Shown here: piece by piece, positions 30,840 to 64,000 of the stretch
How positions within the stretch are numbered: position 1 is the stretch's first letter
How the letters are laid out: every line of letters begins with the position of its first letter
Assembly: GCF_039555335.1 (NCBI RefSeq)
Contig: NW_027305510.1
Location: 1-64,000, forward strand
From: Amphiura filiformis
Lineage: Eukaryota; Echinodermata; Ophiuroidea; Amphilepidida; Amphiuridae
Length of the DNA stretch: 64,000 bases
Direction: 5' to 3'
Translations under genes and position numbers: made by a program
Notes under the pieces: model-generated
Databases searched by the model: none
Seen by the model: the letters and a program-made list of their open reading frames with translations, nothing else
What the model was told of the DNA's origin: nothing

Positions 30840-30940
30840 ATTGGTTACAGCCCCTGTCCACTGGTCAAGCTTTCATAGAGCCAATTGACCAGTGACCACA
30901 CATTTATTCAGTTGTGTCAATCAAGCCAGTGTTTCATAGA
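30840..30940 (-). pseudogene. Partial copy of the HAUS5 last exon
   Basis: GGTTACAGCCCCTGTCCACT and TTTATTCAGTTGTGTCAATC repeat, with small changes, the 3' half of the terminal exon at 30957-31074. The copy is broken by internal insertions and has no splice acceptor. Confidence 0.7.
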
Positions 30941-30956
30941 GCATAAAGCTAGCCAC

Positions 30957-31074
30957 TCATTTATTCAGTTGTCTCAATCTGGTTACAGCCACTGTCCACT
31001 GGTCAAGCCATTGTTGAAGACTTTTGTTGTCCAATCTCACCCATGGTGTTAACTGCTGGGCTGGCTGCTCCCAC
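30957..31074 (-). CDS. HAUS5: HAUS5 terminal exon
   Basis: Acceptor TATTTACTTTGACAG, then G completing the TG from the previous exon (Trp). Encodes WEQPAQQLTPWVRLDN to WTVAVTRLRQLNK and stop TGA at 30959-30957. The double Trp followed by EQP is the best-conserved C-terminal mark of HAUS5. Confidence 0.9.
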
Positions 31075-34000
31075 CTGTCAAAGTAAATAGAATTCATATG
31101 TAGTGACTTAGAGAGCAAGACAGCCCTAGCCCTGTACACTTCAAAATGGAAAGTCTCAAGTTTTGAGTATCAAGAACTATCTCAACAACCAGTGAACAAA
31201 TGCAGGACTTGTCTGTACTCATTTTAATGCATTTTTTGTACTGATTCCAAATATGGTCATGGATATGTACAATTCTGAAACTTTTGAATTTTTACAGAAA
31301 ATTGGAACTTGTCGACTACAGTTGACACCTGTGTGGAGAGGGTTAAATGTCTCACCCTTTTCTGTTCATTAAAGAGTCCTAGTTATCCTGAGTTCATTAA
31401 TGAAATTGGTTGGAGGAGTCACACCTCTTGGGCAATAGAAACAAATTAGTGATCTTTCGATCGACCATCGATGCTTGGTCGATCCTTATTATTTATGAAA
31501 TCAATCAATTGACTATTGTTATTTGTGATAACAAATAACAAGCATTGAAACAGCATCGATGGTCGATTCAAAGATCAAACAAATTTGGTTCTGGTGCCTT
31601 GGTGACAGTGTATTGATGCTTCTGACTCTTCCTGGCAAGCCCATTTTCTTTGTTACTTTTTTTTTCCATGTATTGTGTAATTTCACATTGCGTTTTGTGT
31701 AAAATAAGATAAAATAAATGTTTTGCAATAATCTTCATACGGCCAAAAACACACACAAAAATCCTGTTTCATAGGCCCAACCGACTAAAGTAATATAATT
31801 TGAATGAACACAGCTGTCAACAGCTGTACGCGATCTGACCGTGAACGTATGCCGCATATTTCGAAGTACAACGCGAATGTATGCCCGTGGATACAATAAT
31901 GAAAATACTAACCCATCATGAATGAGTTGACATGGTAGGATTTACTTCCGCGTTACGCACATTCCGGCGTTCATCAAACAGTGTATGCGGAGAAATCGTC
32001 ACACTGTTGACAGCTGTGTTCATTCAAATGAATGCATTTGAGATTGCTTTCATCTGAAAATGCGAGCGAAGTGAACGGGAAAAAAATGTCAATTTAGTAC
32101 ATATTTTTTGTGATTAAGGTTTTTAAGGGTCACTTGCAAACAAACTACTAAGTGCCTGACAGGCAACCCAACTGGAAAGGTGTGTTCACCCAAAAAATCA
32201 AGCCCTTATCTACTATACCTCAGTAAAGTTTTATTTTTAGTTTGTAAAGATAACTTACCATGCTGTTAGTTCATCTTTGACTCTTATGCAGTCTTGCAAT
32301 CCTTGTGTGGCTTCAGCTTGTCTACTTTGAAGCAAGGGAAAGAGTCTACTAAGTTGTTTCTTGTCATGTGCAGCAACTTCGGCTACAAGTGCTGTGAACA
32401 AACAAACAAACACTGAGCAAATAACCGATAATACAGAACAAAGTGCAATGTGAGCAATAAACAATCCAATCTCCCCAAAGGTGTACTTTGATCGTCTGGA
32501 ATTTTTGTTATTTTTCCTTTCAGTTACAACATGACATTTTTTAACCCAAAGAAGATATCTTGCACTTCCCACAATGCATTTCTTCTATTTCAAATTTCTG
32601 TACTGATTTACTATCTATGCAACATGGGTCGATAGTGACAAAAAGTATATTAACCTCATTGAACAGAGCATATCCAGATCTTGTAAAATCTGATTATATC
32701 TTGACTATCGACCGATATTTAGCCAGTCTATTCTCAACATGAAAACTAAGGGAACCTGTACAGTAATAGGAGTGACATTTGCTGCAATGAGGTGATGCAT
32801 CATGTTGCAAAGGATTCTGGGAAGGGGAAGATATTTTCTCTGGTTCTAACCAGGCTGAACCAATACTTTACTTGCTACATGTACAAGTGAAAAGTGGGTA
32901 ATAGTGAATCCCACGGACGAGGACACAAAATACATCAAGGATCAATAAATGATACAAGAGGATACCTTGAATATACGAACAACTGGAAAGAAAAAGTACA
33001 CGAACTTGACATGAGGAAACAAGTAAATTACGGACATAGAGGGGGGACAAGTTGATGTAACTTGCTCTTGTTGTTTTCAGTATATACAAGGCATTTAATT
33101 CTTCAAGATGAACACTTTCAAAGAATTGAGGTTTTTGATCAAATGTTTTGTACACCTTTTTAGAAGTTAACTGGTTGGCACCAATGAGTTATTCCTTTTT
33201 AAATCCGTGCACTCCCTATGGAAGGCATAACCTTTATCTCCAACACAGGGGGTATAGATTTCAAATGGAGTCACCCAGTTAGGTAACCCCATTTAAGGCT
33301 CACACTCCCGGTGTAGATGATTAAGGTCATGCTTTTCATAGGAGGTATATGGATTTCAACTGGAATAGCCCAATGATTATATAATCTGAATAAAATCTTA
33401 CAGTTGTTAACTTATAGTGAACTAAGTTGTGCAAATCCAATGTTTATGGGTCTCAAGTACATTGTACCATGGAGCAAAGCAAAAATATTGATGAACACAT
33501 ATAAACAAATTACTTTAATTTCTCAGGTGACAGACAGACAGACAGACATGTTACCTGCTATATGTTGTATAGTAGTACTATCTTCTGTATGTATACCAGT
33601 CATTTCTTCATATAATACTTGCTGTGCATTCAGCTGTAACTCAATCCTACTTATTTGGCATTTCATGTCCATCACATGTGATAACAGGTTTTCTGGTGCC
33701 TGAAATTATCCAATAATTGATAAATAAAATAATTAAATTCCTCAAGAGTGATCTAAACATGTACCAAAATGTAATTACCCCTCTTTATTACGAGATAATA
33801 ACAGAGACTGGGGGTCGCACGTTCCTCAAACTTGACGGGTGGGTGCGTCTTGACCCGGGACAGAACAAGTTTGTATTGGTTAGTGGGTCAAGGTCACCAG
33901 AGGTCATCTAGGTGTCAAATTAGTAAAAACTGTCATATGGGCATGCAACTTGGTGGGTAGGTGCATCTTGACCTAAGACGGAACAAATTTGTATTGGTTA

Positions 34001-37000
34001 GTGGGTCAAGGTCACCCAGGGGTCATCTGAGGTCAAATTAGTAAAACTGTTTTCCCGCCTATTTTCTCGGAGACTAGGGGTCGCACGTTCCTCAAACTTG
34101 GTGGGTGGGTGCATCTGGATCTCAGACAGAACAAGTTTGTTTCGGTAAGTGGGCCAAGATCACCCGAGGTCATCCAGGGGTCATCTGAGGTCAAATTAGT
34201 AAAACTGTCGTATGGGCATGAAACTTGGTGGGTACAGTCAACTTTTAGAGTCAAATTTTGGACGGTCATTATGGGGTTATCCGGGGTCACCCAGGGGTCA
34301 TCTGAGGTCAAAATAGTAAAAAATGTCGTATGGCCATGAAACTTGGTGGGTACAGTCAACTTTTAGAGTCAAATTTTTGGACGGTCATTATGGGGTCATC
34401 CGGGGTCACCCAGGGGTCATCTGAGGTCAAAACAGTAAAAAATGTCGTATGGCCATGAATCTTGGTGGGTACAGTCAACTTTTAGAGTCAAATTTTTTGA
34501 CGGTAATTTTGGGGTCATCCAAGGTCAAATTACTCAAAACTGTCGTATGGGCATGACACGTGGTGGGCACAGTCACCATCAGCCAGGTAATCGCGACAGC
34601 CGAGAACCGCCAAATACGGGTAACCGCCTAGTATGCATTTAAAACCGAAATAGCAAAAAGAAACCAGTTTTGCAAATTTTGATGAGTCATTTGTCTTAAT
34701 ACCCAAAATCATTTGGAGTGGGCTGACTTTGCAATTTTGTCCTCCTTGGAAATTTTGACCAGTAAGCCACTGCCTGGCTGGCAATTCTTTACAAGCTTTA
34801 TTAATCAAACAAAATAAGAGAGATACAATATATTTTCAAAAATCTAGATTTGAGGTAACCCATCATTCGCCCAAAGTTGATTTACATCGAGCCATTCATC
34901 ACTAGCCATAACCTATAAGATAACTCACTGAGAATTCCACAAAATACATGGACTTCCTTAAAGTCTAACTTGGACACAATGTGTGTCAAGAAGTGCACAA
35001 AAATAATAAGGCAATAGAAACAAATTAGTTTGATCTTTCGATCAACTATTGATGCTTGGTCGATACTTATTATTTATGAAATCAAAAATTAACTGACTGT
35101 TGTTAATTGTGATAACATATAAATTTTTGCCTGTATTGATATTGACCAATTAGGTGATAGTTCATTCATATCAAGCGTCGAAGCAGCATCAATGGTCGAT
35201 CCAAGCAAATTTGGTTTTGGTGCCTCACTTGCTCAGAATAAGGTGTTTAACATCACAACCCAGCTAATGTCACTGCAACGTTGGTTGCTCCAAGGTACGT
35301 TGGAATAATCTGGTTGACTAGATTGAATTTATTCTCTCATAATATTTATACCTCATTGATCAAACTGGAAAGATTTTTCTGTAACCTTAAATGAGTGGGT
35401 TGTAATGCAGTAATACAGAATACAAAAATTTGTAAAAAGGATTTGGCATTTTACTTCATTATACACATACCTTATAGAGCGGGAAATTGAGATGATTCAA
35501 AATATCACAGAAAGCACCACCTCCACTGAATGCTGATTTGTCAGTACATCGGTTGATTGACAGCTGGAATATTGGCACATACTGGCCACTGTGTATGAAT
35601 CATAAAGGAAACATTTGGTAAATCAAAAGTATTGACGAAGGCAGCACATCAAAATAACATAAGAATTTTATCAAAATATCTCTACTAGTTGGGTTGTGCG
35701 TTTTACATCTGATACTTGTGATGTGATTTTAAACCGTTTTGAAGACTGAAATTGATTATGAAATACCCCAGATAGACATGAGAAACCAGTCATCTCAGAA
35801 AAAGAAAGTTGCTGTATTTAAATTTTCCAAATGTAAGGTTTGTAGGGCTGCAACAGAACACATTTAAGCGGATAAAAAAACACACACACATTTAATGGGC
35901 TATTCCAGTTGAAACCATACACCCGTAAGAAATACATGACCTTAACCTTCCACACAGGGAGTGCGAATTATCTGAATGAGTGACAAAATCTACACCCAGT
36001 ATGGGAGATTAAGGTCAGGTCTTCAACAGGGGTTGTATATGGCTTCAACTGGAATAACCCTATGTGATGGCTCAATGAATATTATACCATTTTTCACCGA
36101 TGTGACAGTGCACATTTCATTGGGCGCAGTTTCAAATATCTGGAGTTCGCTCCAAGCGCTGACGTACTCGCGCACACGCTTAAAGATGCCGCATAAACAG
36201 CCCTCGAATTAAGGATCTGTAGGGGCACGGCAACTTTTTTAGGGCAAGTTGATAATTGCCTTGGATTTTCACTGAAGGCAAGGCAGCACAGCAGTTTGTA
36301 ATATTTCAAGAGGGCATCATGGCAACTGTTGAAAATTTGAGGAGGGCACCAGAGCAATTTCTCAAAAGTGAAGAAAACACACAAACAGTCTGATAGATGA
36401 TTTTAATGAAGGGGCAGGGCTGGGGCACTGACAGCAACTTCATCAGCACGGCAAGTGACTGCCGTAGGTAAAGGACATACAGTAAGCCAAAAAATTAAGG
36501 TACCAGTTACATGTAAGTTTACCCCCTGTATATCCTAAACAAAGACAAATATGTCATAATTGGTACCAGCAGCCAATAGCTGCATCTTTTAGCTCTAATT
36601 TAAGACCTCATTCGTTGAAATAGTTCAAGAAACAAAGACACGACGATCCAAAATCCCAAGGAAGGTGCCAATTTTTGCAGTTTCCTCCATTGCATGCGCT
36701 ATTGATTTGTACACAAACCGTTCGCGAACAAGGGAACTAGCGCTGTGCTTCCATTGATTAGCACGTTAAAACTAGTGTCATGCTTTCCAAAAATGCAACT
36801 TTTGATTTCGTCTCTTCGGTAGGTTTTAGATCACCGTTTCTTTAATTCTCAACCAATTTCAACAAATAAGGTCTTGAATCACAGTTAAAGAGTTCAGGTA
36901 TTAGTTTCTGTTTTAATTTTGACACATTTGTCTTTATTTATGATATACAGGGGTGAACACAACTGGTACCTTAATTTTTTGGCTCATTGTATTTTGAGGG

Positions 37001-40000
37001 CATTACCGCAGTGGGGATGGGCACCCGCGGCATTATGCTGTGGGTGCAGTGGGTTAATTCGAGGGATGCGCATAGATGCACACACTAAACTGCTGCCTCA
37101 ACACATTGACTGCACTGCCACATCAGGGTGAAAAGTGGAATACCAACTATTGTTGTATAGATTCAATTTATTGAGCGCTCAGCACAACACAGCCCCATCT
37201 CCACTTTGGCAAGAAAAAGAGAATACCAAACTTTTTAGAAAATTATGGGCTTTCCAGGGACAACAAAGATTGTGTCCATTTCTAGTCCCAATGGGCTATT
37301 CAATTTAAAGTTCACATTCCCCCTTGTGGAAGATTTCGGAAACTTCTTCCACAGGGGGAGCATGTTTTTCAAATGTAATTGGTCAGGGCTTATTTTGAAA
37401 CTCATTCGCCACCAGTATTTAATATGGCTTTACCTAGTCTTCCACAACTGGAGTGAATATTTCAAATGGAAGTTACCTAATTGTCTATACTATTCAAAAC
37501 TCATACTCCCACTGTGAAAGACTTTAGCTAAATCTTTAAATGGAATAGCCAAGACACATACTAGTGAAACATTACTGTATATACAGAGGCCTATGAGGGC
37601 ATAAGTCTTTAAATGCAATTTTTTTCCAAATCCCCCAAATGGAGACAAGGCAGTGTTGCATGGAACCCGTGATGTGATTCCATACAACCAATAAATGAGA
37701 TACAAAAAAAAACTTTTTTCCCTGTCAACTTAATTGAGTGAGTCTAATCAACTGCACTGGCAACCCAGCAAACTTCTCTACTGGAGTCCATGATTGGTTA
37801 ATTACATGATATAATCATCTCAGTAACCAATCAAAATAGAGCTTTTACCTGTCTAATCGTGTGAGTCTCATCAACTGCACTGGCAACCCAGCAACCTTTT
37901 CTACTGGAGCTTCTGATTGGATAATTACATCATAAACGTGATATAATCATCTCAGTAACCAATCAGCAGAGGCAACCCAGCAAACTTCTCTACTGGAGCT
38001 TCTGATTGGATAATTACATCATAAACATGATATAATCATCTCAGTAACCAATCAAAATAGAGTTTACCTGTCTAATTGTGTGAGTCTCATCAACTGCAGC
38101 GGCAACCCAGCAAACTTCTCTACTTCATTTATGACACCATTTCGTAGTTGTGTTGTCATGGCAACAGTCCCTGCTTCATGACCACATAAAGTTGTTTGCA
38201 TGTACCGTAGCAACTGAAATGAATCAAATCATAAATGGTTTGTACTAGAATCAGAGATCCTTTCAAAATTGGTTTCTGATATGAGTTCAAATCACTCCTT
38301 ACTCCTGAACGATACTTATTGATTACAAACTAACTTTGGAAATTAGGGCTATGGCAAAATTAAGATGTTCAGATCCCCCTCTCAGAATTGAAACTGGCAG
38401 ATGGAATAACACATTATAAATGCAGATGAGAGGTTTTGTGAATTGTGCAATGGTGGAAGTGTTATAGGTGAATTCCAATTTGTTTTCCACCTTCTTTAAG
38501 GTTTTAAGAGATAAGTACAATCCTGTTTTTATAGAGTCAATGCAACATTTGGTAAGTTTATCTCTTTGATGAAAAATGAGAATATTAATGTTATTCATAC
38601 ACTCTCAGTTTATTAATATTGCTCTCATACAAACTCAGACATAATATGCACTCTGAAACATAATGCTTCATTATTTATAGAAATTGTGGATTTTTTAATA
38701 CACATGTAATCTAATCTGTTACAGCAGTGAAAACATTTAATTAATGGGATTGGCTGTACCTCACCCATTATTTTTACTGCCTCAGATACATTATTTGAAT
38801 GTAAAGGATGTAATAGAGGCCGTCAGCGTGACGTCATATGCCGCCATCTTGTGGGTACAAGCTGCGATGGTCGTTCGAACTCATGCGCGAACAGCAAAAT
38901 CACTGCGTGTCGATGCGCGATAACAGCTGCGTGGCAAGCTGCGCCCTGCGAGTAGTGTCCGACGCGCGTAGTGTACCCACAAGATGGCGAAAGGCTGACG
39001 GCCTCTATTCTTATATCCATTTACATCTCACTCACTCTGGATATACAGGACGAGTCAAAATGAAGTACACTTTTTGTGGTCATTCAATTTGAGAAAGTGC
39101 TTGTCATTCAATTTGAGAAAGTGCTGTGACACAGCACGAAACGTCATTGAGAGTTATGTCAACATCACCTATTTTACTGGATTTGTTTTAGAACAATTCA
39201 AATAACTTTTTGTGGTGCTTTTGTTGTATTTGAATGTGTTGCAAACAGACCCAAAGATCAGCAGCTCAAGATGAAACCCCCTTCACAACAGTTTTAGTCG
39301 GACCATCCAGAAGACAAGAAGGTATCCAAACAAATACCACAATTCTTTTTTAAAATTTAGCCATTCAGAATCTACTCTTTTCAATGGTATTTTCATTTAC
39401 TGCATATTACTTAATAGATTTGGTACAAAAGCACCACAAATATGAGTTCTTTTTTAAACAACCTGCAGTAGATCACAATTTTCGTCCTGACCTATCACTG
39501 CTACTAACCTGTTTTTGCTGCTCATCCAGTTTTCTTTTTGCTTCAGAGTTTTGTCTCACCAACACTCGAATGATGTTCTGCTTTTGATCCTACAACACAA
39601 AAATAGATTGATTTAGGGATTCAATCATGTTTCACCGTTGTTCATCACCGATTAACAACAATGCGTCCGCGTCGTCTGCGTGGTTTACTTTGCGAGGGCA
39701 GCATTAGCTGCCCGAGCGAAGTAAATCCAACGCGATCAGCTCAAGAATTAATCACATTTTGAAATGTGTAGAATTTTCAGAAATAATCACAGAACAGCCA
39801 TTTTTATTTATATCACTCATACATAAATTCTAGACAGTTCATTGGTTGATTACCATTTATCATTTTTACCATCACCCACTCCGTGTGATAGTCTTTACCA
39901 TCACAGTGCTCTGCCGTAGTGCGCCTGCGCCAAGCCGTGCGCCGACTCTTGGACTCGCCGATTTATTTATGGGGTGGACCCCAAAATGTGAAGTATATCA

Positions 40001-49000: not shown

Positions 49001-49107
49001 TTAATCTCATGTGAAGGGGGTGTATATTTCAAATAGAGTTACCCATTCAGATAACTCAATTTGAAATTCACACTCCCTGTGTGGAAGATTATTAAATGTC
49101 ATGTCTT

Positions 49108-49145
<38 letters not shown>

Positions 49146-55100: not shown

Positions 55101-58100
55101 CAACTTCCGTTCGGAGTAAAAAAAAAAAGTTAGTTTTTCATGGAGAAGAGACATGAACTTAGGGAAGGTTTTTATATTTTTTTGAAATTCGTCTTATTTT
55201 TCGAAATATTGCAAAAAACATGTGAAAAAAGCAATTTTGTCACTCTATTAAGTTAAAAATTGCACATAATGGTGTATATTTTTGTTCAAAACAAATATTT
55301 TGAAAAAATGAGAAAACCTTCCCTAGACTTTGATGTGCTCTAAACGATAGTGCAAAAGGTTTACCTTTTGCTTGCATATTTTCCGAGTTATCTTGTCACA
55401 AAAATCGTATAATATTGTTAAAAATGAACTCTGAGAAATCGACGTTTTAGTAAAAAAATGTCAAAATTATGAACAAAACGTCCTTATATTTTAAAACGGC
55501 AAGACTTTCACGCTTGTAAAAGCTGTATGTGGTGCATGGTCTAAATATGCATCTTTTTGCACCAATGAATCTATAATGTCTGTTTTTAGTGCGCCTAAAT
55601 CCAAAATAATTAAAAAATCTAAGTGGCTTTTTCACTGCAAATTTTTGTTTTGTTTACATCACATTTGCTGGCGTTAACAACATACCGAATGCGCCTTGAC
55701 TGCGTTGGACATACGCGCATAGGTGCGCCGCGTCACGCGACGCGAATAGCGCGCGTAATCACAATATTTCGCATTCGCGCATTGCCGACTCATTATTTCC
55801 CGCCAATTTACTAAGCTATCTTGAGCCATGTGACTTTTTAGAGTTGAAAAGAGTGAAATAAATCAAGCAAAAATACAAGTAAATATTAGGAAGTTGTATT
55901 TTTATCAGTTTCAAGTGAAAGAATACATCTTAGTGTTGATAAATATCAAGAAATCTCAAATTCGGGTGTGGACGAATGTGTCTCCCCTTACTCTGGCCTT
56001 AAGGTGGTACTACACCCCCTAATAAATTTTGTGACTAATTTTTACAAAAGTTATGTATAGGGGCATGGGATCCAATTACTTCACTGAAATTTCAGTTATT
56101 CAAGGCAAGTGGTTCATTATGTATGTTAAGAAATGAGGTACATTCTACATGTAGCGGTACCTCTTTTCTATAACATACTGATTGTCTTCAGTCACTGAAA
56201 TTACAATGTAGTAACTGGATTCCTTGCCCATATACATAACTTTTGTTTGTTATTACTTTTTGAGAAAAATGCAAAATTACTCCCAAATTTATCAAGGGGT
56301 GTAATACATGTACCACCTTAATCTATCTGCCTGCCACTACCTATCCCAATCAGCACACTATCCGCCCAATCCAAGTCAGAACACATAACATGAGGGCATA
56401 CATGTACTTACATATGAGGCTGTTGATATTGGCTTAATCTATCTGCAACTCTCTTGCTGTATTCTTCATATCTGGCTATATCAACTTTGCACTCTGCTGT
56501 ATGCGCTTCTAAGAGGGCGCTTTTCCTCTGCAAATCCACAAGTTTTGAGCAATTTTCTTGGTATTCAGCTTCTATGAAATTAGGAAGATACAAAATACAA
56601 TCCAATGTCATAGGGACCGATGAACATCTGAATCCAAATGTATTAGGAATACACCCAACAGATGAACATACGAAACAGATTCAGATTTTCAGCAAATAGA
56701 TGCAATTAGGATACATAACATAATTAAAACATTTTGCTAGGCAAATCCATTAAAAAAAGTAACTCACTACTTTAGCTTTCGCTGTGTGGGATGACGGCTT
56801 GATCACATTACTTGATTGTATGTATGTGATCGAAAGAAAAAAGGAGGCCGAAGCAATCAACCGTGATTGCCACATCTTCCCAGACCATACCTTTATCACC
56901 AATGTCTGTCTGCATTCTTACCACCTCTTCCCAGACCTCACCTTTATCACCAATGTCTGTCTGCATTCTTTCCACCTCTTCCCAGACCATACCTTCATCA
57001 ACAATGTCTGTCTGCATTCTTGCCACCTCTTCCCAGACCATACCTTTATCACCAATGTCTGCATTCTTACCACCTCTTCCCAGACCATACCTTTATCACC
57101 AATGTCTGTCTGCATTGTTACCACCTCTTCCCAGACCATACCTTCATCAACAATGTCTGTCTGCATTCTTGCCACCTCTTCCCAGACCTTACCTTTATCA
57201 CCAATGTCTGCATTCTTACCACCTCTTCCCAAACCATACCTTTATCACCAATGTCTGTCTGCATTGTTACCACCTCTTCCCAGACCATACCTTTATCACC
57301 AATGTCTGCCTGCATTGTTACCACCTCTTCCCAGACCATACCTTTATCACCAATGTCTGCCTGCATTCTTACCACCTCTTCCCAGACCTTACCTTTATCA
57401 CCAATGTCTGTCTGCATTCTTACCACCTCTTCCCAGACCTTACCTTTATCACCAATGTCTGTCTGCATTCTTACCACCTCTTCCCAGACCTTACCTTTAT
57501 CACCAATGTCTGTCTGCATTCTTTCCACCTCTCTGCTAAGATGCTGCATATCAGTCTTTGCTGTAGCAAGCTGTGCTATCAACGCTCTCTTCTTCTCCAG
57601 TTTCTCTGCGCGTTGTTGTGAATACTTGCGATCCCCTTTGTACTTCACCCGATATGCGGCACGTGCATTATTCCTGGAATTTCTTGTTAAGAAAGCTAAA
57701 AGCTCTTTTTTGATTGCTTACGATTTATGCATTACCACAATTATCAGAAAAAATACCACATGGGATACTTGTGCTTGCAGTTGCTTTGTGCATTGAGCTT
57801 TTTTGATATGGATCCGTTTAAGGGTTAATCTTCCATCCACATAAATTTCAAATGGAGTTACCCATTCAGGTAACCCAACTTGAAATTCACACTCCCTGTG
57901 TGGAAGATTAAGGTCATAATCCATAGGGGATGCATGGATTTCAACTGGAATAGTCCATTTTACAGAAAGTCACTGACCACTCATGGTCACACTCCTTATG
58001 GAAACCATATTTATTACATAAAACAGGCACAGAATCCTAATCGGCCAACATGAAAAAAACCATCACAGCCAGGATAAATAATTTTGGATACAGGAGTAGA

Positions 58101-60217
58101 TTAGACTTCGTCGGCAGAGTGCTACACTATCGTAAGTGCAGTTTGGACAGTTTTACAGGAGGAGCATTTTTGTGTTTAGCATAGCCGTTTGTTTCCAAGT
58201 AGCCATAAAATGACATGGGAATGTAAAGCAATTTGATTTTAATAATATAAACTATATAAATGGTGTTAAAGTTAATAAATCGATGAATTATTTACTGATT
58301 TAGATGTCGTAAGTGCCACATACGATAGTGTTACACTCAAATTGAAATGAGTGTAGAGTGCAACACTATCGTATGTGCCACATACGATAGTGTTACACCC
58401 AAATAGAAATAAGTGTGAGTGCAACACTATCGTATGTGCCACATACGATAGTGTTGCACTCAAATAGAAATGAGTGTAGAGTGCAACACTATCGTATGTG
58501 CCACATACGATAGTGTTGCACTCAAATAGAAATGGTGTAGAGTGCAACACTATCGTATGTGCCACATACGATAGTGTTGCACTCATTGCTAAATTGTGAT
58601 ATGCGTAATATCGGCTCAAATATCCAATATTTTGTCATTTTATGTTTCTTAACAAGTGTTAATTAATTTTGGCATATAATATTTACAATAGCAAGACACC
58701 TTTTGCCGTAATGTTATCTCTCAAGATTTATTACTGAATCTAAAACTAAAAACACCGGATTTATCATGGGAGCTATGAATGTAGCCAGCATGATGACAAC
58801 GCATACAGCCATGGACGTATAATAGAGCACGAAGTGCGATGGACTTGCAACTCCGTTCGTCGATGTGAGGTCAGCGATCGTCACGCTTGCAACATGTGGG
58901 CGTAGATGGCAGCAGCATTTTTCTTTAATTAGCATAAGTCTCCACAGCACTACGCATATTTTTTTACGTAGCTTTTAGTACTATCATGGTGGCAGCAGCA
59001 TTTTTCTTTACTTTTCCAATATGGCGCCGCCCTTGAATCAATTTGGTGCCTGTTGGAGACGCCATCGGACGCCATTTAAGCGCAGAGTAATACACAGGGA
59101 AAGCCGACGCTGTCGCCACCTTTTTGTATTGCGCTTGTATACGAGTTGCAACGGCCTGATACAGCCGTAAGCGTCACAGCCAGTGATGTGTCAGAGACGG
59201 TTTTGCACTTACGATGGTGTAGCATTCTGTGATTTTGTTGTTTAGGCCCTATAAAGTAGCATATGTGGCACATACGATGGTCTTGCAGCAAATGAAAAAC
59301 AAAATTAGCGGGCAAGACTATCGTAAGTGGCACATACGATAGTCTTGCATTCATTAATTAAAATTGCATTGCACTTACGATATTTTATTTTATTAATTAA
59401 AAAATAATTAAGCAATTTTGAAACTTAAAACCTGGTTTAAAATGTGCGTTTTTATATGGCCTTCCATAATTCGTCAAAATCTCATTTTGGCCAAAAATGT
59501 CACTTACGATAGTGTAGCACTCTGGCGACGACTTGACATTGTGAACACGCTGTGCTGAGTGTACATGGGTTGTCACATAGTCCCAGATGTCTAGCAACTT
59601 ATATAGGCACAGAACCTTAATCAGCCTACATATAAAATAACCATCACAGCCAGGATAAATAAGGATACAGGAGTAGATTAGACTTGACATTGTGTACACG
59701 CTGTGCTGAGTGTACATGGGTTGTCACATAGTCCCAGATGTCTAGCAACTTATACAAGCACAGAACCTTAATCAGCCTACACATAAAATAACCATCACAG
59801 CCAGGATAAATAAGGATACAGGAGTAGATTAGACTTGACATTGTGCACACGCTGTGCTGAGTGTACATGGGTTGTCACATAGTCCCAGATGTCTAGCAAC
59901 TTATATAAGCACAGAACCTTAATCAGCCTACATATAAAATAACCATCACAGCCAGAATAAATAAGGATACAGGAGTAGATTAGACTTGACATTGTGTACA
60001 CGCTGTGCTGAGTGTACATGGGTTGTCACATAGTCCCAGATGTCTAGCAACTTATATAAGCACAGAACCTTAATCAGCCTACACATAAAATAACCATCAC
60101 AGCCAGAATAAATAAGGATACAGGAGTAGATTAGACTTGACATTGTGTACACGTTGTGCTGAGTGTACATGGGTTGTCACATAGTCCCAGATGTCTAGCA
60201 ACTTCCCACGGCAAACC
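30957..60217 (-). CDS. HAUS5: HAUS augmin-like complex subunit 5 (spliced, 15 exons resolved, 5' end incomplete)
   Basis: Fifteen minus-strand exons, each with an AG acceptor and GT donor, join in phase: 60217-60137, 57673-57495, 56571-56412, 53448-53358, 46270-46185, 44633-44469, 43439-43355, 42419-42262, 41005-40855, 39589-39509, 38213-38068, 35588-35471, 33699-33555, 32391-32259, 31074-30957. They encode about 631 residues; human HAUS5 has 633. Landmarks shared with HAUS5 are CRGKLLDIWDYVTTHVHS at the start, a long coiled coil, GDGGQLFDTSTSS..MKSVHQLI, and the C-terminal AWWEQPAQ (human DWWEQPGQ). Known role: with seven other subunits, augmin recruits gamma-tubulin ring complexes to spindle microtubules for branching nucleation; HAUS5 pairs with HAUS3. 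The N-terminal ~17-35 residues probably come from an exon in or beyond the array at 62275-64000. Identity is inferred from remembered homologues. Confidence 0.87.
31450..31578. mobile_element. MITE, GATCTTTCGATCGACC termini
   Basis: GTGATCTTTCGATCGACCAT at the left is inverted at the right as ATGGTCGATTCAAAGATCA. The loop has TTATTATTTATGAAATCA. Copies lie at 35022-35220 and, in part, at 30055-30130. Confidence 0.8.
31797..32038. mobile_element. MITE, ATTTGAATGAACACAGC termini
   Basis: Left ATTTGAATGAACACAGCTGT, right its inverse (ACAGCTGTGTTCATTCAAAT). CG-rich interior with no ORF. It lies in the last HAUS5 intron. Confidence 0.9.
32259..32391 (-). CDS. HAUS5: HAUS5 internal exon (EVAAHDKKQLSRLFPLLQ)
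   Basis: Acceptor GTTCACAG, donor GCATG|GTAAGT. 133 bp, phase 1 to 2. Coiled-coil helix ending KDELTA, which joins to WWEQP in the next exon. Confidence 0.9.
32550..32838. mobile_element. MITE with GATATCTTGCACTTCCCAC end
   Basis: The left AAGATATCTTGCACTTCCCA is matched, inverted and imperfectly, by TTCTGGGAAGGGGAAGATAT at the right. About 200 bp is repeated at 44690-44885 (ACAATGCATTTCTTC, CTCAACATGAAAAC). Confidence 0.7.
33185..33373. mobile_element. GGAATAGCCC-type foldback MITE
   Basis: Right end GATTTCAACTGGAATAGCCC; inverted GGAAGGCATAACC and GGTCATGCTTTTC blocks. In a HAUS5 intron. Confidence 0.85.
33555..33699 (-). CDS. HAUS5: HAUS5 internal exon (APENLLSHVMDMKCQISR)
   Basis: Acceptor ATAATTTCAG, donor TAGCAG|GTAACA. 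145 bp, phase 0 to 1. Continues the coiled coil (IELQLNAQQVLYEEMTG). Confidence 0.9.
33790..34560 (+). repeat. AGGTCA-rich tandem repeat
   Basis: Six or so units of ~100-180 bp sharing AAACTTGGTGGGT, CACCCAGGGGTCATCTGAGG and TCAAATTAGTAAAACTGTC. AGGTCA half sites recur on the plus strand. Lies in a HAUS5 intron. Confidence 0.85.
35022..35220. mobile_element. MITE related to 31450-31578
   Basis: Shares TTTGATCTTTCGATCAACTA, TTATTATTTATGAAATCA, TTGTGATAACA and the inverted ATCAATGGTCGATCCAAGC end. Confidence 0.75.
35471..35588 (-). CDS. HAUS5: HAUS5 internal exon (GQYVPIFQLSINRCTDK)
   Basis: Acceptor ATACACAG, donor TATAAG|GTATGT. 118 bp, phase 2 to 0. The segment VPIFQLS..AFCDILNHLNFPLYK corresponds to the SSFIALSHKLGLP region of human HAUS5 (from memory). 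Confidence 0.9.
35896..36061. mobile_element. GGAATAGCCC-type foldback MITE
   Basis: Left TGGGCTATTCCAGTTGAAAC, right GGCTTCAACTGGAATAACCC. In a HAUS5 intron. Confidence 0.85.
36486..36983. mobile_element. TIR element, ~65-bp arms
   Basis: GCCAAAAAATTAAGGTACCA at the left is inverted at the right (TGGTACCTTAATTTTTTGGC). The arms continue through CCCCTGTATATC and AAAGACAAAT. About 498 bp, non-coding, in a HAUS5 intron. Confidence 0.88.
37290..37552. mobile_element. Divergent foldback MITE (GGGCTATTCAATTT type)
   Basis: AATGGGCTATTCAATTTAAA at the left and TTAAATGGAATAGCC at the right. Internal CCCCCTTGTGGAAGA and TCTTCCACAGGGGGAG form an inverted pair. Confidence 0.65.
37735..38005 (-). repeat. 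Tandem partial copies of the 3' end of a HAUS5 exon
   Basis: GGCAACCCAGCAAACTTCTC, from the exon at 38068-38213, recurs near 37760, 37883 (variant) and 37970. It is followed by CTACTGGAGCTTCTGATTGG and TCATCTCAGTAACCAATCA. The copies keep the TTACCTGTCTAAT donor side near 37848 and the GTGAGTCTCATCAACTGC block. Confidence 0.85.
38068..38213 (-). CDS. HAUS5: HAUS5 internal exon (LLRYMQTTLCGHEAGTVAM)
   Basis: Acceptor CATTTCAG, donor TAGACAG|GTAAAC. 146 bp, phase 0 to 2. Encodes LRNGVINEVEKFAGLPLQ. Confidence 0.88.
38816..39006. mobile_element. CG-rich MITE, AGAGGCCGTCAGC termini
   Basis: The left AGAGGCCGTCAGC and CGCCATCTTGTGGGTACA are inverted at the right (TGTACCCACAAGATGGCG, GCTGACGGCCTCT). 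CG-rich interior, unlike the AT-rich intron around it. Confidence 0.9.
39509..39589 (-). CDS. HAUS5: HAUS5 internal exon (DQKQNIIRVLVRQNSEAK)
   Basis: Acceptor GTGTTGTAG, donor AAACAG|GTTAGT. 81 bp, phase 0 to 0, 27 codons of basic coiled coil. Confidence 0.85.
39809..40090. mobile_element. MITE with ATATCACTCATACATAAATT end
   Basis: Left ATATCACTCATACATAAATT, right inverse AATTTATGCATGGGTGATAT. CG-rich core. Confidence 0.6.
40151..40219. repeat. Perfect-stem hairpin
   Basis: GGTGAAAGACGGATTGTTCC and CATTCCA pair with the inverse half ending ATCTTTCACC around a ~20-nt loop. Confidence 0.8.
40855..41005 (-). CDS. HAUS5: HAUS5 internal exon (NELELAANTAMVKCLHEF)
   Basis: Acceptor GTTGTTTAG, donor CTTGCG|GTATGT. 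151 bp, phase 2 to 0. Long charged helix (ETTASKATKEKEILYNKYQK). Confidence 0.88.
41062..41125 (-). pseudogene. Copy of the 5' end of the preceding HAUS5 exon
   Basis: AGCTGTGTTGGCTGCTAACT and CAAGCTCATTG plus the acceptor side CTAAACAACTTCCTATTAGG repeat 40977-41020, about 95 bp upstream in the gene. The copy includes the acceptor but only ~30 bp of exon. Confidence 0.85.
41860..42060 (-). repeat. Possible tRNA-derived SINE fragment
   Basis: On the minus strand CCTGGGTTCGAATCCCGGG (near 41992-42010) is a good Pol III B box / T-arm. A T/C-rich tail follows. No complete cloverleaf or clear A box is visible, so it is not called a tRNA. Confidence 0.35.
42083..42195 (-). pseudogene. Partial copy of HAUS5 exon 42262-42419
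   Basis: About 105 bp at ~88% identity: AACTAGCAGGTGATGTTAAC, CCTGGTGCATTGG and the donor AACAAG|GTAAAT are kept and the frame stays open (QLAGDVNNRLAIIYAK). The upstream ~50 bp and the acceptor are missing. Confidence 0.88.
42262..42419 (-). CDS. HAUS5: HAUS5 internal exon (EKQLAHIQNFTETERHLN)
   Basis: Acceptor CAATTTTCAG, donor AGCAAG|GTAAAT. 158 bp, phase 0 to 2. Encodes LDKRLEQLAGDVNNRLAMIY. Confidence 0.9.
43174..43352. mobile_element. GGAATAGCCC-type MITE abutting a HAUS5 splice donor
   Basis: Left TTGGGCAATTCCATACACCC, right GGATTTCAACTGGAATACCCC. It ends about three bases from the donor of exon 43355-43439, so most of the donor's intron side is MITE sequence. Confidence 0.88.
43355..43439 (-). 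CDS. HAUS5: HAUS5 internal exon (FKYGDGGQLFDTSTSSPN)
   Basis: Acceptor TTGTTTATAG, donor ATTACG|GTAATG. 85 bp, phase 2 to 0. Encodes LMKSVHQLIT. It aligns with the GDGLGDTEIS..MVHLIQEGW part of human HAUS5 (from memory) and is the only way to join its neighbours in phase. Confidence 0.85.
43500..44010 (-). repeat. Tandem decayed copies of HAUS5 exon 43355-43439
   Basis: Copies near 43520-43611, 43651-43725, 43781-43869 and 43945-44010, each with intron sequence (CAATTCAGAAAAAACA, GTCCTGGGACCCCTC). Copy one has an in-frame stop and an insertion. In all of them ATTACG/ATTATG is followed by AGGGGT, so the donor GT is absent. Confidence 0.88.
44129..44392. mobile_element. GGAATAGCCC-type MITE, one fragment plus one copy
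   Basis: A truncated copy (44129-44195, GGGCTATTCCAGCTGAAATC) is followed by a fuller copy ending GATTTCAACTGGCATTGCCC. Confidence 0.8.
44469..44633 (-). CDS. HAUS5: HAUS5 internal exon (QQRRNTIADKLEKIMTSN)
   Basis: Acceptor CTTGTGCAG, donor GCTGAG|GTATGA. 165 bp, phase 2 to 2. Encodes TAEQLLHSVAQTTEGAHYMV. Confidence 0.9.
44690..44885. repeat. Copy of the 32550-32838 MITE
   Basis: Shares CACTTCCCACAATGCATTTC, TGATTTACTATCTA and AAGGGAACCTGT in order. Confidence 0.75.
45853..45935 (-). pseudogene. Decayed copy of HAUS5 exon 46185-46270
   Basis: TTACTACTCACATTG, TCATCTGTTTTGTCTTCTCC and CTTGCAGTAAGCCCT repeat the 3' half of the exon with its donor side. The copy dissolves into the adjacent 21-bp minisatellite. 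Confidence 0.85.
45935..46165. repeat. 21-bp minisatellite
   Basis: About eleven copies of TGGGTGTATTTGGGAGACAT plus T. Because 21 is a multiple of 3, long open frames appear on both strands; I do not regard them as genes. It lies between a HAUS5 exon and its copy. Confidence 0.93.
46185..46270 (-). CDS. HAUS5: HAUS5 internal exon (KLTRETCEDIEGLLQDMV)
   Basis: Acceptor CACTTTGCAG, donor ACAAT|GTGAGT. 86 bp, phase 0 to 2; AT is completed by the G of the next exon (Met). Confidence 0.88.
46679..46816. mobile_element. Foldback element
   Basis: ATATGTGTACATCCATATCA and CACTTGTCGGCTGCTACATG are inverted at the right (CATGTAGCAGCCGACAAGTG, ATGGATGTACACATAT). An outer TATGTGAAACAG occurs as a direct pair. 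Confidence 0.88.
47271..48840. mobile_element. TIR transposon remnant, ~150-bp arms
   Basis: The left arm (AAATAAACACATC, AAATAAGTCCCCC, GTACCAATAAAAC, ATAATTATATGACTGTTT, GTTGTGTGAAAATGAAAGAT) is inverted at 48683-48840. The interior (~1.3 kb) has no recognisable transposase. Lies in a HAUS5 intron; superfamily unassigned. Confidence 0.82.
48949..49112. mobile_element. GGAATAGCCC-type MITE, left part, split by LINE
   Basis: Runs from the GGCCATTCC end through ACACTCCCTGTGTGGAAGAT to CATGTCTTCCATA, where the LINE 3' tail begins. The missing right end is at 53165-53203. Confidence 0.85.
49425..51361 (-). pseudogene. LINE reverse transcriptase and C-terminal region (frameshifted)
   Basis: Four frames in series. 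51361-50399 has WKRAKVIPVFKAGDPNDPSN then YRPISIL and LLDLKKAFDTV. 50391-50092 has GMPQGSIDGPLAFLIYINDL and the catalytic MYADDT. 50095-49859 has KCKHLGVIIDDTLTWNEQI. 49853-49425 has LPHLDYCNVVWGN and IQNRAARTI. These are standard CR1/jockey RT and post-RT blocks; at least three frameshifts separate them. Confidence 0.9.
51321..52761 (-). pseudogene. LINE AP-type endonuclease (frameshifted)
   Basis: 52761-52012 starts with an Asn-rich spacer and then LANLNICSLTGNIDELKHIL, VMGLGETFLN and RRGGVAF. 51941-51321 continues with GDLNCDL and VGLSDHS. These are the nucleic-acid-binding and catalytic blocks of the LINE endonuclease. About two frameshifts lie between 51942 and 52015. Confidence 0.85.
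52780..53150 (-). pseudogene. LINE ORF1 remnant with SGNH-esterase-like end
   Basis: Minus-strand frames read RTLIDATLKKFPSAHIIVSS and, after disruptions, DYVHLNNRGLGKLVMNLRRV. The D-x(2)-HLN-x-G motif is the last catalytic block of SGNH hydrolases, known in ORF1 of some CR1-like LINEs. Stops interrupt the frame. Confidence 0.6.
53165..53203. mobile_element. GGAATAGCCC-type MITE, right part, split by LINE
   Basis: CATAGGGGGTGTATGGATTT then CAACTGGAATAGCCCA: exactly the end missing from the copy at 48949-49112. Confidence 0.85.
53358..53448 (-). CDS. HAUS5: HAUS5 internal exon (SSTHQTIYFSKHGKGSLD)
   Basis: Acceptor CTTCCACACACAG (chosen over a nearer AG at 53433 because only this one keeps the phase), donor GCACG|GTGAGT. 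91 bp, phase 2 to 0. Ends EETGLETACT, matching the VRTACT stretch of human HAUS5 (from memory). Confidence 0.82.
53571..53680 (-). pseudogene. Degenerate copy of HAUS5 exon 56412-56571
   Basis: Encodes ECKVDIVRYEEYNK, like ECKVDIARYEEYSK of the real exon, and keeps GCCAATATCAACAG. The 5' third and the acceptor are lost, and no donor is evident next to the copy. Confidence 0.85.
53685..54890. repeat. ~64-bp tandem array derived from a HAUS5 exon-intron junction
   Basis: About 19 copies of a unit with CCTCCCGGTCCCAGTCAGTA, CACATATAACATAAGGACAT and ACACACTTATATATGAGGCT. The last block is the exon 3' end and donor side of 56412 (ACTTACATATGAGGCTG on the plus strand). Copies are nearly identical, with 2-bp indels in the TATATA part. 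Confidence 0.92.
54900..55998. other. HAUS5 intron, no feature seen
   Basis: AT-rich with poly-A/T runs. A CG-rich patch (55685-55765) stands out but has no ORF or symmetry that I can define. Confidence 0.4.
55999..56321. mobile_element. TTAA-flanked foldback MITE, copy 2
   Basis: TTAAGGTGGTACTACACCCC at the left, GGGGTGTAATACATGTACCACCTTAA-type end at the right, with inverted arms. In the HAUS5 intron just 3' of exon 56412-56571. Confidence 0.88.
56412..56571 (-). CDS. HAUS5: HAUS5 internal exon (EYQENCSKLVDLQRKSAL)
   Basis: Acceptor AATTTCATAG, donor CTCATAT|GTAAGT. 160 bp, phase 1 to 2. Coiled coil with AECKVDIARYEEYSKRVADR. Confidence 0.88.
56860..57494 (-). repeat. HAUS5: 51-bp tandem array of HAUS5 exon 3' end with donor
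   Basis: About twelve copies directly 3' of exon 57495-57673. On the minus strand each unit reads GTAAGGTCTGGGAAGAGGTG, GTAAGAATGCAGACAGACAT, TGGTGATAAAG. It therefore contains the exon end IGDK and a strong donor (AAAG|GTAAGG in most). At 51 bp the unit is in frame (17 residues, WEEVVRMQTDIGDKGKV); 4-bp deletions near 57060 and 57205 break the frame. Confidence 0.93.
57495..57673 (-). CDS. HAUS5: HAUS5 internal exon (KYKGDRKYSQQRAEKLEK)
   Basis: Acceptor AAATTCCAG, donor GATAAAG|GTAAGG. 179 bp, phase 2 to 1. Encodes LATAKTDMQHLSREVERM. I chose the first of many repeated donors because the coiled coil then matches human HAUS5 without a gap over about 77 residues (memory-based alignment). Use of a later donor would add multiples of 17 residues. 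Confidence 0.82.
57826..57957. mobile_element. GGAATAGCCC-type foldback MITE, truncated
   Basis: AATTTCAAATGGAGTTACCC, then GAAATTCACACTCCCTGTGT and GGATTTCAACTGGAATAGTCC. Confidence 0.8.
58270..58590. repeat. Palindromic tandem satellite (CTATCGTA)
   Basis: About five units of ~60 bp. Each contains the palindrome AACACTATCGTATGTG + CCACATACGATAGTGTT, joined by ACTCAAATAGAAATGAGTGT, itself a short inverted pair. Related CTATCGTAAGTG cores recur singly at 58125, 59210-59360 and 59500. Confidence 0.92.
59530..60136 (-). repeat. HAUS5: 151-bp tandem array containing copies of a HAUS5 exon
   Basis: Four copies downstream of the exon at 60137-60217, with a 151-bp period. Each encodes KLLDIWDYVTTHVHSAQRVH on the minus strand and ends in the same GTC-AA|GTCTAA or GTCGTC donor. 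They lack the acceptor and the first ~17 bp of the exon, replaced by CTTATATAAGTTG sequence. Confidence 0.92.
60137..60217 (-). CDS. HAUS5: HAUS5 exon (CRGKLLDIWDYVTTHVHS)
   Basis: Acceptor CTTTTAATTTCAG, donor GTCAA|GTCTAA (non-optimal). 81 bp, phase 2 to 2. The C-x-G-x(3)-DIW-x-Y-x(3)-HVHS signature matches the N-terminal region of human HAUS5 (CLGQGADIWAYILQHVHS). Confidence 0.82.
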
Positions 60218-60644
60218 CTGAAATTAAAAGAACAAGAATAGAAATTAATAACAGTGAGGATAATTCGTAAGTATGTAAGAATGAGTAAAAAGTGGGCTAT
60301 TCCATTTGAAATTCGTACACCCCCTATGGAAGATACATACGTATATAGAAGGTAACTTTTACGACAGTCTGTGATGCAGAAAATTATTTTGTTTGGAATT
60401 TATCTTTTCTACTTTTGTAAATGGTTTATCTGGAATAATTGCAACTGTTGAACTTATTTGAAATTCCAAAACCTTCCTGGGGTGGGGGGGTTCAAATGGA
60501 AGAGCTACAATAAAATGGGCCATTCCATTTGAAATCTGCCATACCACTGGAACAATTAAGGAAAGTCCTCCACAGAGGGAGTATGTGTTTCAAATGGAAT
60601 TGGCTAGGGTTAACTTTTTTGAGACCTGCCACTCCCACTTTTAT

Positions 60645-61005
60645 TTAAGGGGGTACTACAACCCTGTGGTAAATTTGTGACTATTTTTGTACTTTTCTCA
60701 AAAACTAATAACACACTGGTAATAGAAGTTATGTATATTATTGGGGCAAAGAATCCAATTACTACTGAAATTTCTGTGACTCAAGACAAGCGGTTCAGTT
60801 TATATGATAGGAAATGAGGTACATCCTAGCAGTACCTCATTTCTTATCATAAATAACGAACCGCTTGTCTTGGGTCATTGAAATTCCACTGTAGTAATTG
60901 GATTCCTTGCCCCTATAATATACATAACTTTTCTTACCAGTGTGGTATTTTGAGAAAAGTGCAAAAATAGTCACAAATTTATCGAAGGGTGTAGTACCCC
61001 CTTAA
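60645..61005. mobile_element. TTAA-flanked foldback MITE, copy 3
   Basis: TTAAGGGGGTACTACAACCC and the inverse GGGTGTAGTACCCCCTTAA. The arms share GACTATTTTTG and AGCGGTTC/GAACCGCT pairs; the AGGTACATCC..GTACCTCATT axis lies near 60830. Confidence 0.92.
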
Positions 61006-61313
61006 TATGTTAAACATTTATTTTGTTTCTATATTATTAATCAGGGTCTCATGGGAGACCCAGTATTGTAATTACTGAACTGAGTAACCCTCCTTGGAGG
61101 AGTCTGGATTTCAAATGTACATGTAATAGCCCAATGTACTCACAAGGCCAAATGGGTGTCGCTGTCTATCAGTGTATCACTAGTTCACTACAAGATGAAA
61201 ATATTGGGGTTTTCTATGAATGTGTACGTTTTCAATATTTTGTATGTGTTGGACTTATCACTTTGCATTTGAAGGGGTACAGAAAGGGCGTGATCGGTTA
61301 AATATGTGTGAAT

Positions 61314-62242
61314 CAGGGTTCCCGTTAAGGTTTTAAAAATGTGCGTCCGTAATGACGCAAGTTTGCTGACGAGGTTGCAAAAACTTGCGTCCAGACAGAT
61401 TTTTGTGCGTCCATCTGAAATTCACGATTATGGCGATACACGCGTACCCCGGGTCTACACCTCATCAAATGTTGATTGTTAAAAATAAAAGTGCATTTTC
61501 GCCGTGATATTCCATCTCCATTCGCTATGATAATTTTTCTCATTTCTGTGTCAGTTTTGGTCTGAAACGTGGTCAAAAACAGGTGCCAAAAACATGAGCA
61601 AAGTCCGTCAATCTTGAGCAATTTTCGTTTGTACTTTCACTTCCGCATTTCTTTTTTTAAATTAACGTGTTGTTGATGCTACAAAAACTAAAACACGCTC
61701 TGCCAAAAATAAAAAAAAAAAGGGTTATCATTTGGATTTTGTCTTTAAAATTGCTTTTATTCATCGTAACAATAATTACTAATAACGGAAACCTAGATTA
61801 TTTATGAGAAAATAAACTTTTAAAAATTGAATATTGTCAGGTTGTGATAAGTAATTAAATAAACATTAACCGCACGTTAGCGGCATGTGGTGCTTGCTTG
61901 TAAACAAATCAATCGGGACTTCCCCAGGCCATCAAACACTCCAGCGATCGTTCGGAAATCATGCAAAAAGTGCACGATTTCCTGACGTTGCATTTACAAA
62001 TATTGCAGAATTTACTTCAATTCTCAGCAGGTTGGTCAAAATTTTGGGGCTTTTATTATCTTAAAAATATAAAGAATAAAATTTCTTATTTTTATCATCA
62101 ATTAATGATAAAATTTGAAGTTTTGTCTCGCGTCCACATGCATGTGACATGGACGCAAAATACTTGATTAGCCATGTGAACTTGCGTCCAAATTTGTAAA
62201 ATACGCGTCTGGACGCAATGACGCACACTAACGGGAAGCCTG
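61314..62242. mobile_element. hAT-like non-autonomous element with 8-bp TSD
   Basis: Ends CAGGGTTCCCGTTA and TAACGGGAAGCCTG, flanked by GTGTGAAT (61306-61313) and GTGTAAAT (62243-62250): an 8-bp target duplication with one mismatch. Sub-terminal GTGCGTC and TTGCGTCC motifs are inverted. CAGGG ends plus 8-bp TSD are typical of hAT. No transposase ORF. Confidence 0.88.
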
Positions 62243-62274
62243 GTGTAAATTGTGTGTTAAAGTAAACCTTGCAC

Positions 62275-64000
62275 ATGGACAAATCATCAGTGGTTGCCAT
62301 ATCAGAATTAACATGTTTCCCACATGGTTACCTAGGGTTAGGATTAAGTTTTAAGGTTTGTCACAAGGCCAATTCATCAGTGGTTGGCATATCAGAATTA
62401 ATGTCTCCCATGCATGGTTCACTTGGGTTAGGCTTAAGTTAACTATGGTTTGTACTCACATGGCCAATTCATCAGTGGTTGGCATATATCAGAATTAATG
62501 TCTCCCATGCATGGTTAACTAGGGTTAGGGTTAAGTTAACTAATTTGTACTCACATGGCCAATTCATCAGTGGTTGGCATATCAGAATTAATGTCTCCCA
62601 TGCATGGTTAACTAGGGTTAGGGTTAAGTTAACTAATTTGTACTCACATGGCCAATTCATCAGTGGTTGGCATATATCAGAATTAATGTCACCCATGCAT
62701 GGTTAACTAAGGTTAGGGTTAAGTTAAGGTTTGTACTCACATGGCCAATTCGTCAGTGGTTGGCATATCAGAATTAATGTCTCCCATGCATGGTTAACTA
62801 GGGTTAGGATTAAGTTAACTATTATGGTTTGTACTCACATGGCCAATTCGTCAGTGGTTGGCATATATCAGAATTAATGTCTCCCATGCATGGTTAACTA
62901 GGGTTAGGGTTAAGTTAACTAATTTGTACTCACATGGCCAATTCGTCAGTGGTTGGCATATCAGAATTAATGTCTCCCATGCATGGTTAACTAGGGTTAG
63001 GATTAAGTTAACTATGGTTTGTACTCACATGGCCAATGCATCAGTGGTTGGCATATCAGAAGTAATGTCTCCCATGCATGGTTAACTAGGGTTAGGGTTA
63101 AGTTAACTATGGTTTGTACTCACATGGCCAATTCATCAGTGGTTGGTATATCAGAATTAATGTCTCCCATGCATGGTTAACTAGGGTTAGGGTTAAGTTA
63201 ACTAATTTGTACTCACATGGCCAATTCATCAGTGGTTGGCATATATCAGAATTAATGTCTCCCATGCATGGTTAACTAGGGTTAGGGTTAAGTTAACTAA
63301 TTTGTACTCACATGGCCAATTCATCAGTGGTTGGCATATCAGAATTAATGTCTCCCATGCATGGTTAACTAGGGTTAGGATTAAGTTAACTAATTTGTAC
63401 TCACATGGCCAATTCATCAGTGGTTGGCATATATCAGAATTAATGTCTCCCATGCATGGTTAACTAAGGTTAGGGTTAAGTTAAGGTTTGTACTCACATG
63501 GCCAATTCGTCAGTGGTTGGCATATCAGAATTAATGTCTCCCATGCATGGTTAACTAGGGTTAGGATTAAGTTAACTATTATGGTTTGTACTCACATGGC
63601 CAATTCGTCAGTGGTTGGCATATATCAGAATTAATGTCTCCCATGCATGGTTAACTAGGGTTAGGGTTAAGTTAACTAATTTGTACTCACATGGCCAATT
63701 CGTCAGTGGTTGGCATATCAGAATTAATGTCTCCCATGCATGGTTAACTAGGGTTAGGATTAAGTTAACTATGGTTTGTACTCACATGGCCAATGCATCA
63801 GTGGTTGGCATATCAGAAGTAATGTCTCCCATGCATGGTTAACTAGGGTTAGGGTTAAGTTAACTATGGTTTGTACTCACATGGCCAATTCATCAGTGGT
63901 TGGTATATCAGAATTAATGTCTCCCAGGCATGGTTAACTAGAGTTAAGGGTAAGTTAACTATGGTTTGTACTCATAAGGCCAATTCATCAGTGGTTGGTA
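62275..64000 (-). repeat. HAUS5: ~95-bp tandem array carrying a putative HAUS5 5' exon end; runs off the window
   Basis: About 18 units of 93-97 bp. On the minus strand each reads ATGGGAGACATTAATTCTGA, then TATGCCAACCACTGATGAAT and TGGCCAT|GTGAGTAC, a strong donor. Spliced to 60217 it reads MPTTDELAM-VCRGKLLDIW in phase, fitting the position just before the CLG of human HAUS5. The unit also contains TTAGGGTTAGGGTTAA on the plus strand. A 757-bp block of eight units is itself duplicated (for example 62479 and 63236, 62858 and 63615). Confidence 0.88.

Follow-up and report, generated by a model that had tools for sequence, protein, structure and literature searches.

Partial duplications at HAUS5 exon edges, several grown into tandem arrays, in the brittle star Amphiura filiformis

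The 64,000-nucleotide stretch of DNA analyzed here (the window; positions 1 to 64,000 of contig NW_027305510.1, assembly GCF_039555335.1) comes from the brittle star Amphiura filiformis and carries a HAUS5 gene on its minus strand. Partial copies accompany ten of the approximately 16 exons of this gene when the 3′ edge of exon 1 is counted. With moderate confidence, we read these copies as ordinary, probably neutral tandem duplications at the DNA level, at least nine of them separate, each spanning approximately 50–210 bp and mostly straddling HAUS5 splice junctions. The excess of duplication families at the exons is probably real in this gene.

The identity of the gene, already proposed in an earlier note made from the sequence alone, was established by its translated pieces, which match the HAUS5 family of Pfam (PF14817; E 4.1e-29, 102.3 bits against a gathering cutoff of 25.6), and by a protein search in which the annotated A. 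filiformis HAUS5 protein (P0001) was the best of eight hits; two of the eight are unnamed, and the other named hits come from sea stars and sea urchins. With tblastn of P0001 and splice borders as guides, 15 exons were set in the window, from E2 (60217–60122) through E16 (31074–30957), in a numbering of our own; exon 1 lies beyond position 64000 and may comprise more than one exon. All 15 acceptors are AG and all 14 donors GT, E16 ending in the stop codon. Joined, E2–E16 give 641 codons free of stops (two letters of the first were supplied from the inferred end of exon 1), of which 634 encode the residue found in P0001 and seven differ, so that the gene looks intact. In the E4, E9 and E12 exons, residues 179 (N) and 368 (I) of P0001 match the intronic copy and not the window's exon, while the window's exon and the copy agree at residue 185 (H) and also, where one of the two copies is concerned, at residue 508 (Q). 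This sharing of residues between exons and intronic copies could reflect old polymorphism or gene conversion.

Local self-comparison within 4 kb revealed partial copies of nine of the 15 in-window exons (E2, E3, E4, E6, E8, E9, E10, E12, and E16) and none at E ≤ 0.01 for the remaining six (E5, E7, E11, E13, E14, and E15). For eight of the nine, the best match has an E-value of at most 3.5e-19, and for E16 it has one of 1.3e-5; the copies as such thus exceed chance. Each of the ten places at which the earlier note had reported copies, including the probable one at 62275–64000, does carry partial exon copies, and its coordinates proved right. The copies of seven exons (E1, E2, E3, E4, E6, E9, and E12) lie on the donor side and those of two (E8 and E10) on the acceptor side, whereas the E16 match is a single weak piece within the coding part that holds no junction; for the E1 array, whose exon is outside the window, the side is inferred. 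The direct-repeat units of E1, E2, E3, E6, E9, and E12 carry the exon edge with its donor and adjacent intron, and those of E10 do the same at the acceptor, while E8 units hold acceptor and exon and the E4 array has an altered donor GT in 15 of 15 rows. The proposal that the copied unit usually includes an exon edge and its splice site therefore stands for most families, with E16 and E4 departing from it, and the proposal that several copies were expanded into tandem arrays is borne out by aligned rows in four families (Table 1). The real E8 is the last of its series (43355–43439), being the only one with a full-length match to P0001 and with a GT donor behind it; the other copies hold the exon as well, in two cases together with an acceptor, and show AG where the real E8 has its donor. 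A 21-bp minisatellite lies between the E6 3′ edge and its copy, and the E1 array contains a higher-order repeat, in which two identical units, beginning at 63743 and 62986, lie 757 bp (eight units) apart.

Table 1. Features of the window, with positions on the forward strand.
Feature	Position	Strand	Remarks
HAUS5, exons E2–E16	30957..60217	-	PF14817; P0001; AG/GT borders; 641-codon open frame
E1 3′ edge (~53 nt) + donor GTGAGT + intron start, 95-bp array	62272..64000	-	Runs off window; 19 rows including partial
E2 last 83 of 96 nt + donor GTATCC + intron, 151-bp array	59530..60204	-	First unit is the real exon
Old terminal remnant of E2 array, beyond insertion	58027..58108	-	Differences: exon part 0/17, intron part 13/62
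E3 last 38 nt + donor + intron start, 51-bp array	56867..57532	-	13 rows including exon
E4 copies	53574..54902	-	64-bp array of 3′ edge 53683–54902; separate copy 53574–53667
E6 3′ edge (64 nt + 20 nt intron) 46165–46248 + copy 45853–45936	45853..46248	-	94%
E8 + upstream acceptor, several copies, some partial	43355..44015	-	Copies across 43518–44015
E9 last 88 nt + 32 nt intron, copy 42050–42172	42050..42349	-	89%; donor GTAAAT kept
E10 first 42 nt + acceptor + upstream intron, copy 41071–41185	40976..41185	-	92%; bounded by direct repeat TTAGCAGC
E12 3′ edge (57 nt) + intron, more copies downstream within 37716–37994	37716..38124	-	
E16 29-bp piece repeated past stop codon, at 30842–30870	30842..31008	-	Weak, E 1.3e-5
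Intron-only 118-bp tandem family	33804..34575	.	Counter-example to exon linkage
Insertion bounded by 31-bp terminal inverted repeats (97%), palindromic repeats inside	58108..59531	.	Inside last E2 copy; likely non-autonomous DNA transposon
Dispersed element sites	28749–28892, 29195–29375, 33184–33374, 35893–36070, 43180–43352, 44208–44398, 48959–49112, 57842–57959		

The copies of eight exons (E1, E2, E3, E4, E6, E9, E10, and E12) extend over the splice junction into the intron and are therefore copies of DNA and not of mRNA; an origin by retrocopying, in which copies would stop at the junction or join two exons, is rejected. Identities of the exon and intron parts, alignment ends included, are 65/71 and 22/26 for E6, 46/46 and 69/79 for E10, and 27/30 and 46/57 for the E4 edge, in which the exon part is the more similar; 86/91 and 77/78 for E2 and 57/66 and 99/105 for E12, in which it is the less similar; and 86/98 and 36/42 for E9 and 39/40 and 39/39 for E3, in which the two are about equal. 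Taken together, the copies thus do not point consistently to constraint on their exon parts. Array units are mostly 86–100% identical to the probe unit, whereas the older pieces are terminal or lie beside the exon: the terminal E1 copy (62272–62327) is the most diverged (84%), the E2 remnant differs mainly in its intron part, and the E4 array differs from its exon at 11 of 42 intron positions. This pattern fits an old founder duplication followed by later growth of the array. The 57-nt spacer between the E9 copies (42173–42229) resembles intron 7 near 43.9 kb, but the score of 34 equals the best of 40 shuffles, and an origin from intron 7 is hence not claimed.

As read from the sequence, no copy retains both of its own exon's splice sites: donor-side copies begin within the exon, past the acceptor, and the E8 and E10 copies lack a donor. 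Because of this, the spliceosome would presumably skip the copies and leave the protein unchanged, and P0001 contains none of them. Whole-exon tandem duplication, with both of the exon's own sites in the extra copy, is rejected on the same ground.

The excess of duplication families at exons emerges when families, whose states and unit lengths were assigned by hand, are taken as the unit of counting. Of the 12 families in the gene region, eight share bases with an exon, where rotations give 3.7 (p 0.007), and the 11 intergenic families, set against rotated pseudo-exons, gave a mean of 3.9 overlaps and a maximum of 7 in 2000 rotations; this test left out the clusters at 16026–16659, 28749–29368 (dispersed element), and 58907–59013 and a 24-bp repeat at 39079. 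Under a founder-unit null, in which one founder unit per family was placed at random, the 8 of 11 families observed on exons stand against 1.1 expected (p 1.3e-6) with E1 and E16 left out, and 10 of 13 against 1.3 with both included; p was 1.7e-4 with a threefold unit length and 0.0018 when only a 12-kb target was open. The cluster at 58907–59013 was omitted here, and the 21-bp array beside E6 was counted within the E6 family. Scoring one end unit per family gave 6 of 12 on exons against 1.15 (p 0.002), in a test tilted toward the observed count because the array end was chosen where donor-side exons lie. Counted by exon, 7–9 of the 15 have at least 20 covered bases, against 3.7–4.9 expected (p 0.0075–0.053 over six settings and two nulls). 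Detection bias was rejected as the source of the excess: when the original was mutated like its copy, five of seven pairs were found again in 40 of 40 trials (E ≤ 1e-4), the weaker pairs being the far E4 copy (18 of 40) and E16 (20 of 40); the E1, E2, and E3 arrays, whose units match each other, stood outside this control. A second gene in which the excess could be replicated was sought by a six-frame scan against Pfam (stops as X, E ≤ 0.05), and none was found in 8301–30862.

The reading as ordinary duplications with an excess at exons overlaps with its alternatives, so that the probabilities given to them need not sum to one, and several observations weigh against it. Measured per base (local duplications at E ≤ 1e-4 and distance ≤ 600), the covered fraction amounts to 0.253 for exons, 0.218 for the remaining gene region, and 0.290 for the flank at 1–30839, with ranges over six settings of 0.238–0.304, 0.217–0.260, and 0.275–0.387, respectively; clusters are as frequent outside the gene region (11 in 31 kb) as within it (12 in 33 kb), and the enrichment rests on a single gene and was tested post hoc. 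These figures, together with exon-count tests that reach p 0.05 at stricter thresholds, speak for the view that tandem duplication has no exon bias but occurs genome-wide, overlapping HAUS5 exons by chance and being noticed there since exons are recognizable. This view is compatible with the other steps of the explanation proposed below, and we consider it unlikely, although it retains appreciable weight, as the 8 of 12 families on exons exceed every intergenic rotation and the founder null disfavors it even with the restricted target. The earlier note had named an equal density of duplications elsewhere as the observation that would count against a link to exons; this is partly the case, as duplications are per base about equally dense elsewhere, but the gene-region families fall on exons more often than under random placement (p 0.007 to approximately 1e-6, depending on the null model). 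The GC content of gene-region families (0.416 when exon-linked, 0.436 in two that are intron-only) exceeds the intron background of 0.361, whereas intergenic families (0.382 against 0.372) show no GC preference, and base composition may contribute to the gene-region families. A mechanism specific to exon–intron junctions, in which breaks linked to transcription or splicing duplicate junctions and mainly donors, would account for the family-level excess and for the donor side of seven of the nine sided families, but this is improbable in view of the two acceptor-side families and the tandem families that are intron-only or intergenic. In the direction of the gene most copies do lie 3′ of the exon, as the earlier note had stated (seven donor-side, two acceptor-side, one internal), but the bias falls short of significance (0.09 in a one-sided sign test, calculated by hand; 0.035 for 7/8 and 0.0625 for 6/7 with E8 not placed on the acceptor side). 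Replication slippage or transcription-associated repair at exon–intron junctions, raised in the earlier note, would be a possible local mechanism behind the exon excess.

Further counterpoints concern the neutrality of the copies and the way in which they arose. In 16 full rows of the E1 array, 32 of 864 exon positions differ against 55 of 656 intron positions (hand count, gaps included), which could indicate constraint, and an AG sits just before the copied exon part in the E2 copies, where cryptic splice-site use is possible. The E9 copies stand 57 nt apart and the E6 copies are spaced by an array, neither of which simple fill-in would give; set beside the short direct repeats that mark the ends of the E10 (TTAGCAGC) and E3 (AGAGGTGG vs AGATGTGG) units and that fit slippage or unequal exchange, this spacing suggests that the duplications arose separately and in more than one way. 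The copies might instead be functional, with decoy donors that tune splicing or with E3 units, a clean 51 bp and in frame, of which each would add 17 residues to an isoform if a downstream donor were used. The low exon-part divergence of the E1 array, the GT donor kept in 13 of 13 E3 rows including the exon, the open frame of the first E3 units, and a junction variable number tandem repeat (VNTR) of human CBS reported with reduced activity (in a reference title carried by PMC2630376) are in line with this possibility. We nevertheless regard it as very unlikely, since two 47-bp E3 rows break the frame, the exon part is no more conserved than the intron part in the hand-counted arrays of E3 (28/456 and 10/156 differing) and E2 (6/320 and 4/186, remnant left out), the E4 donors are altered throughout, and the repeats are absent from the annotated protein. 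Merged haplotypes or long-read errors would be conceivable in a nanopore assembly of an animal with 3.22% heterozygosity, as the A. filiformis reference is described in PMC11310086, and some array units are identical; an assembly artefact is highly improbable, however, for copies that differ by up to 30%, come in many distinct unit lengths, and include an array broken by an insertion with inverted repeats, although the copy number of the arrays may be wrong in the assembly.

Under the favored reading of ordinary DNA-level duplication, a stretch that spans a junction would be duplicated either through fill-in during the repair of a break or through slippage on short direct repeats; for human and mouse cells, fill-in at breaks has been described as a source of small tandem duplications (PMC8355091). 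Some of these duplications, as the array pattern suggests, would then grow into minisatellite arrays through slippage or unequal exchange, and the copies, being skipped by the spliceosome without a change in the protein, would be tolerated. Our guess as to why exons are favored is that they anchor repair and unequal exchange, as the stretches that align best between the haplotypes of a very heterozygous animal; this link from heterozygosity to exon-anchored exchange is a suggestion of our own. Its broad form, in which tandem duplications in brittle-star genomes begin preferentially at exons, the best-pairing stretches of diverged haplotypes, and exon edges seed minisatellites genome-wide, is speculative and rather doubtful. 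Should the exon excess prove general among genes, it would tie together heterozygosity, recombination, and the birth of minisatellites, and the many splice sites duplicated in nature would offer material for asking how the spliceosome picks the right site among close copies. Should it fail in other genes, the density seen in HAUS5 would be nothing out of the ordinary for a genome rich in duplications, and the case would be a caution for annotating exons in that genome.

Several other elements are present in the window. The insertion that interrupts the last E2 copy is likely a non-autonomous DNA transposon, as judged from its terminal repeats. Minus-strand open reading frames at 49425–52854, in intron 5, resemble a non-LTR retrotransposon (long interspersed nuclear element, LINE) by eye from their translations, and a dispersed, partly palindromic element of approximately 120–190 bp has matches in both orientations. 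Outside the gene, a 52-bp minisatellite of approximately 81 copies occupies 3766–7977, and a weak DDE_3 transposase match at approximately 15440–15547 (25.2 bits), the only match of the six-frame scan of 8301–30862 at E ≤ 0.05, falls under the Pfam cutoff of 28.6. No RNA families at gathering score and no tRNA genes were found.

To our knowledge, such a multiplicity of exon-edge duplications in one gene has not been noted before. The literature matches listed contain no gene with many of them, which does not show absence from print. HAUS5 resembles several known systems in part. Like the small tandem duplications that follow breaks through Pol alpha-primase fill-in (PMC8355091), its copies are short and direct; unlike them, the E6 and E9 copies are spaced and the arrays need a second process. 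The AGGT model of intron gain (PMC3443670) shares tandem duplication and splice signals with HAUS5, but in that model the duplicated stretch is exonic and a further intron comes into being, whereas in HAUS5 the stretch runs across a junction that already exists. As an account of the HAUS5 copies, AGGT intron gain was considered and set aside, as the exon order and the 641-codon frame need no new intron between copies. Parallels are also found in human CBS, for which two junction duplications in one gene are already in print (PMC2630376); they are to be set beside the earlier note's remark that it knew of no gene with so many separate exon-edge duplications. The 31-bp CBS VNTR, c.1444_1467+7(16_21), has by its name a unit of 24 exon and 7 intron nt (PMC2630376), and its counterpart, the E3 unit, has 38 exon and 13 intron nt; the CBS VNTR concerns one exon, whereas HAUS5 has seven donor-side families in one gene. 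In CBS 844_845ins68, the distal site is preferred in splicing and the segment upstream is taken out (PMC2630376, which speaks of a donor site), and the E10 duplication would need splicing of the same kind; unlike that human polymorphism, the HAUS5 copies are diverged. HAUS5 is thus a case of CBS-type junction duplications, a kind that is itself known, with unusual multiplicity.
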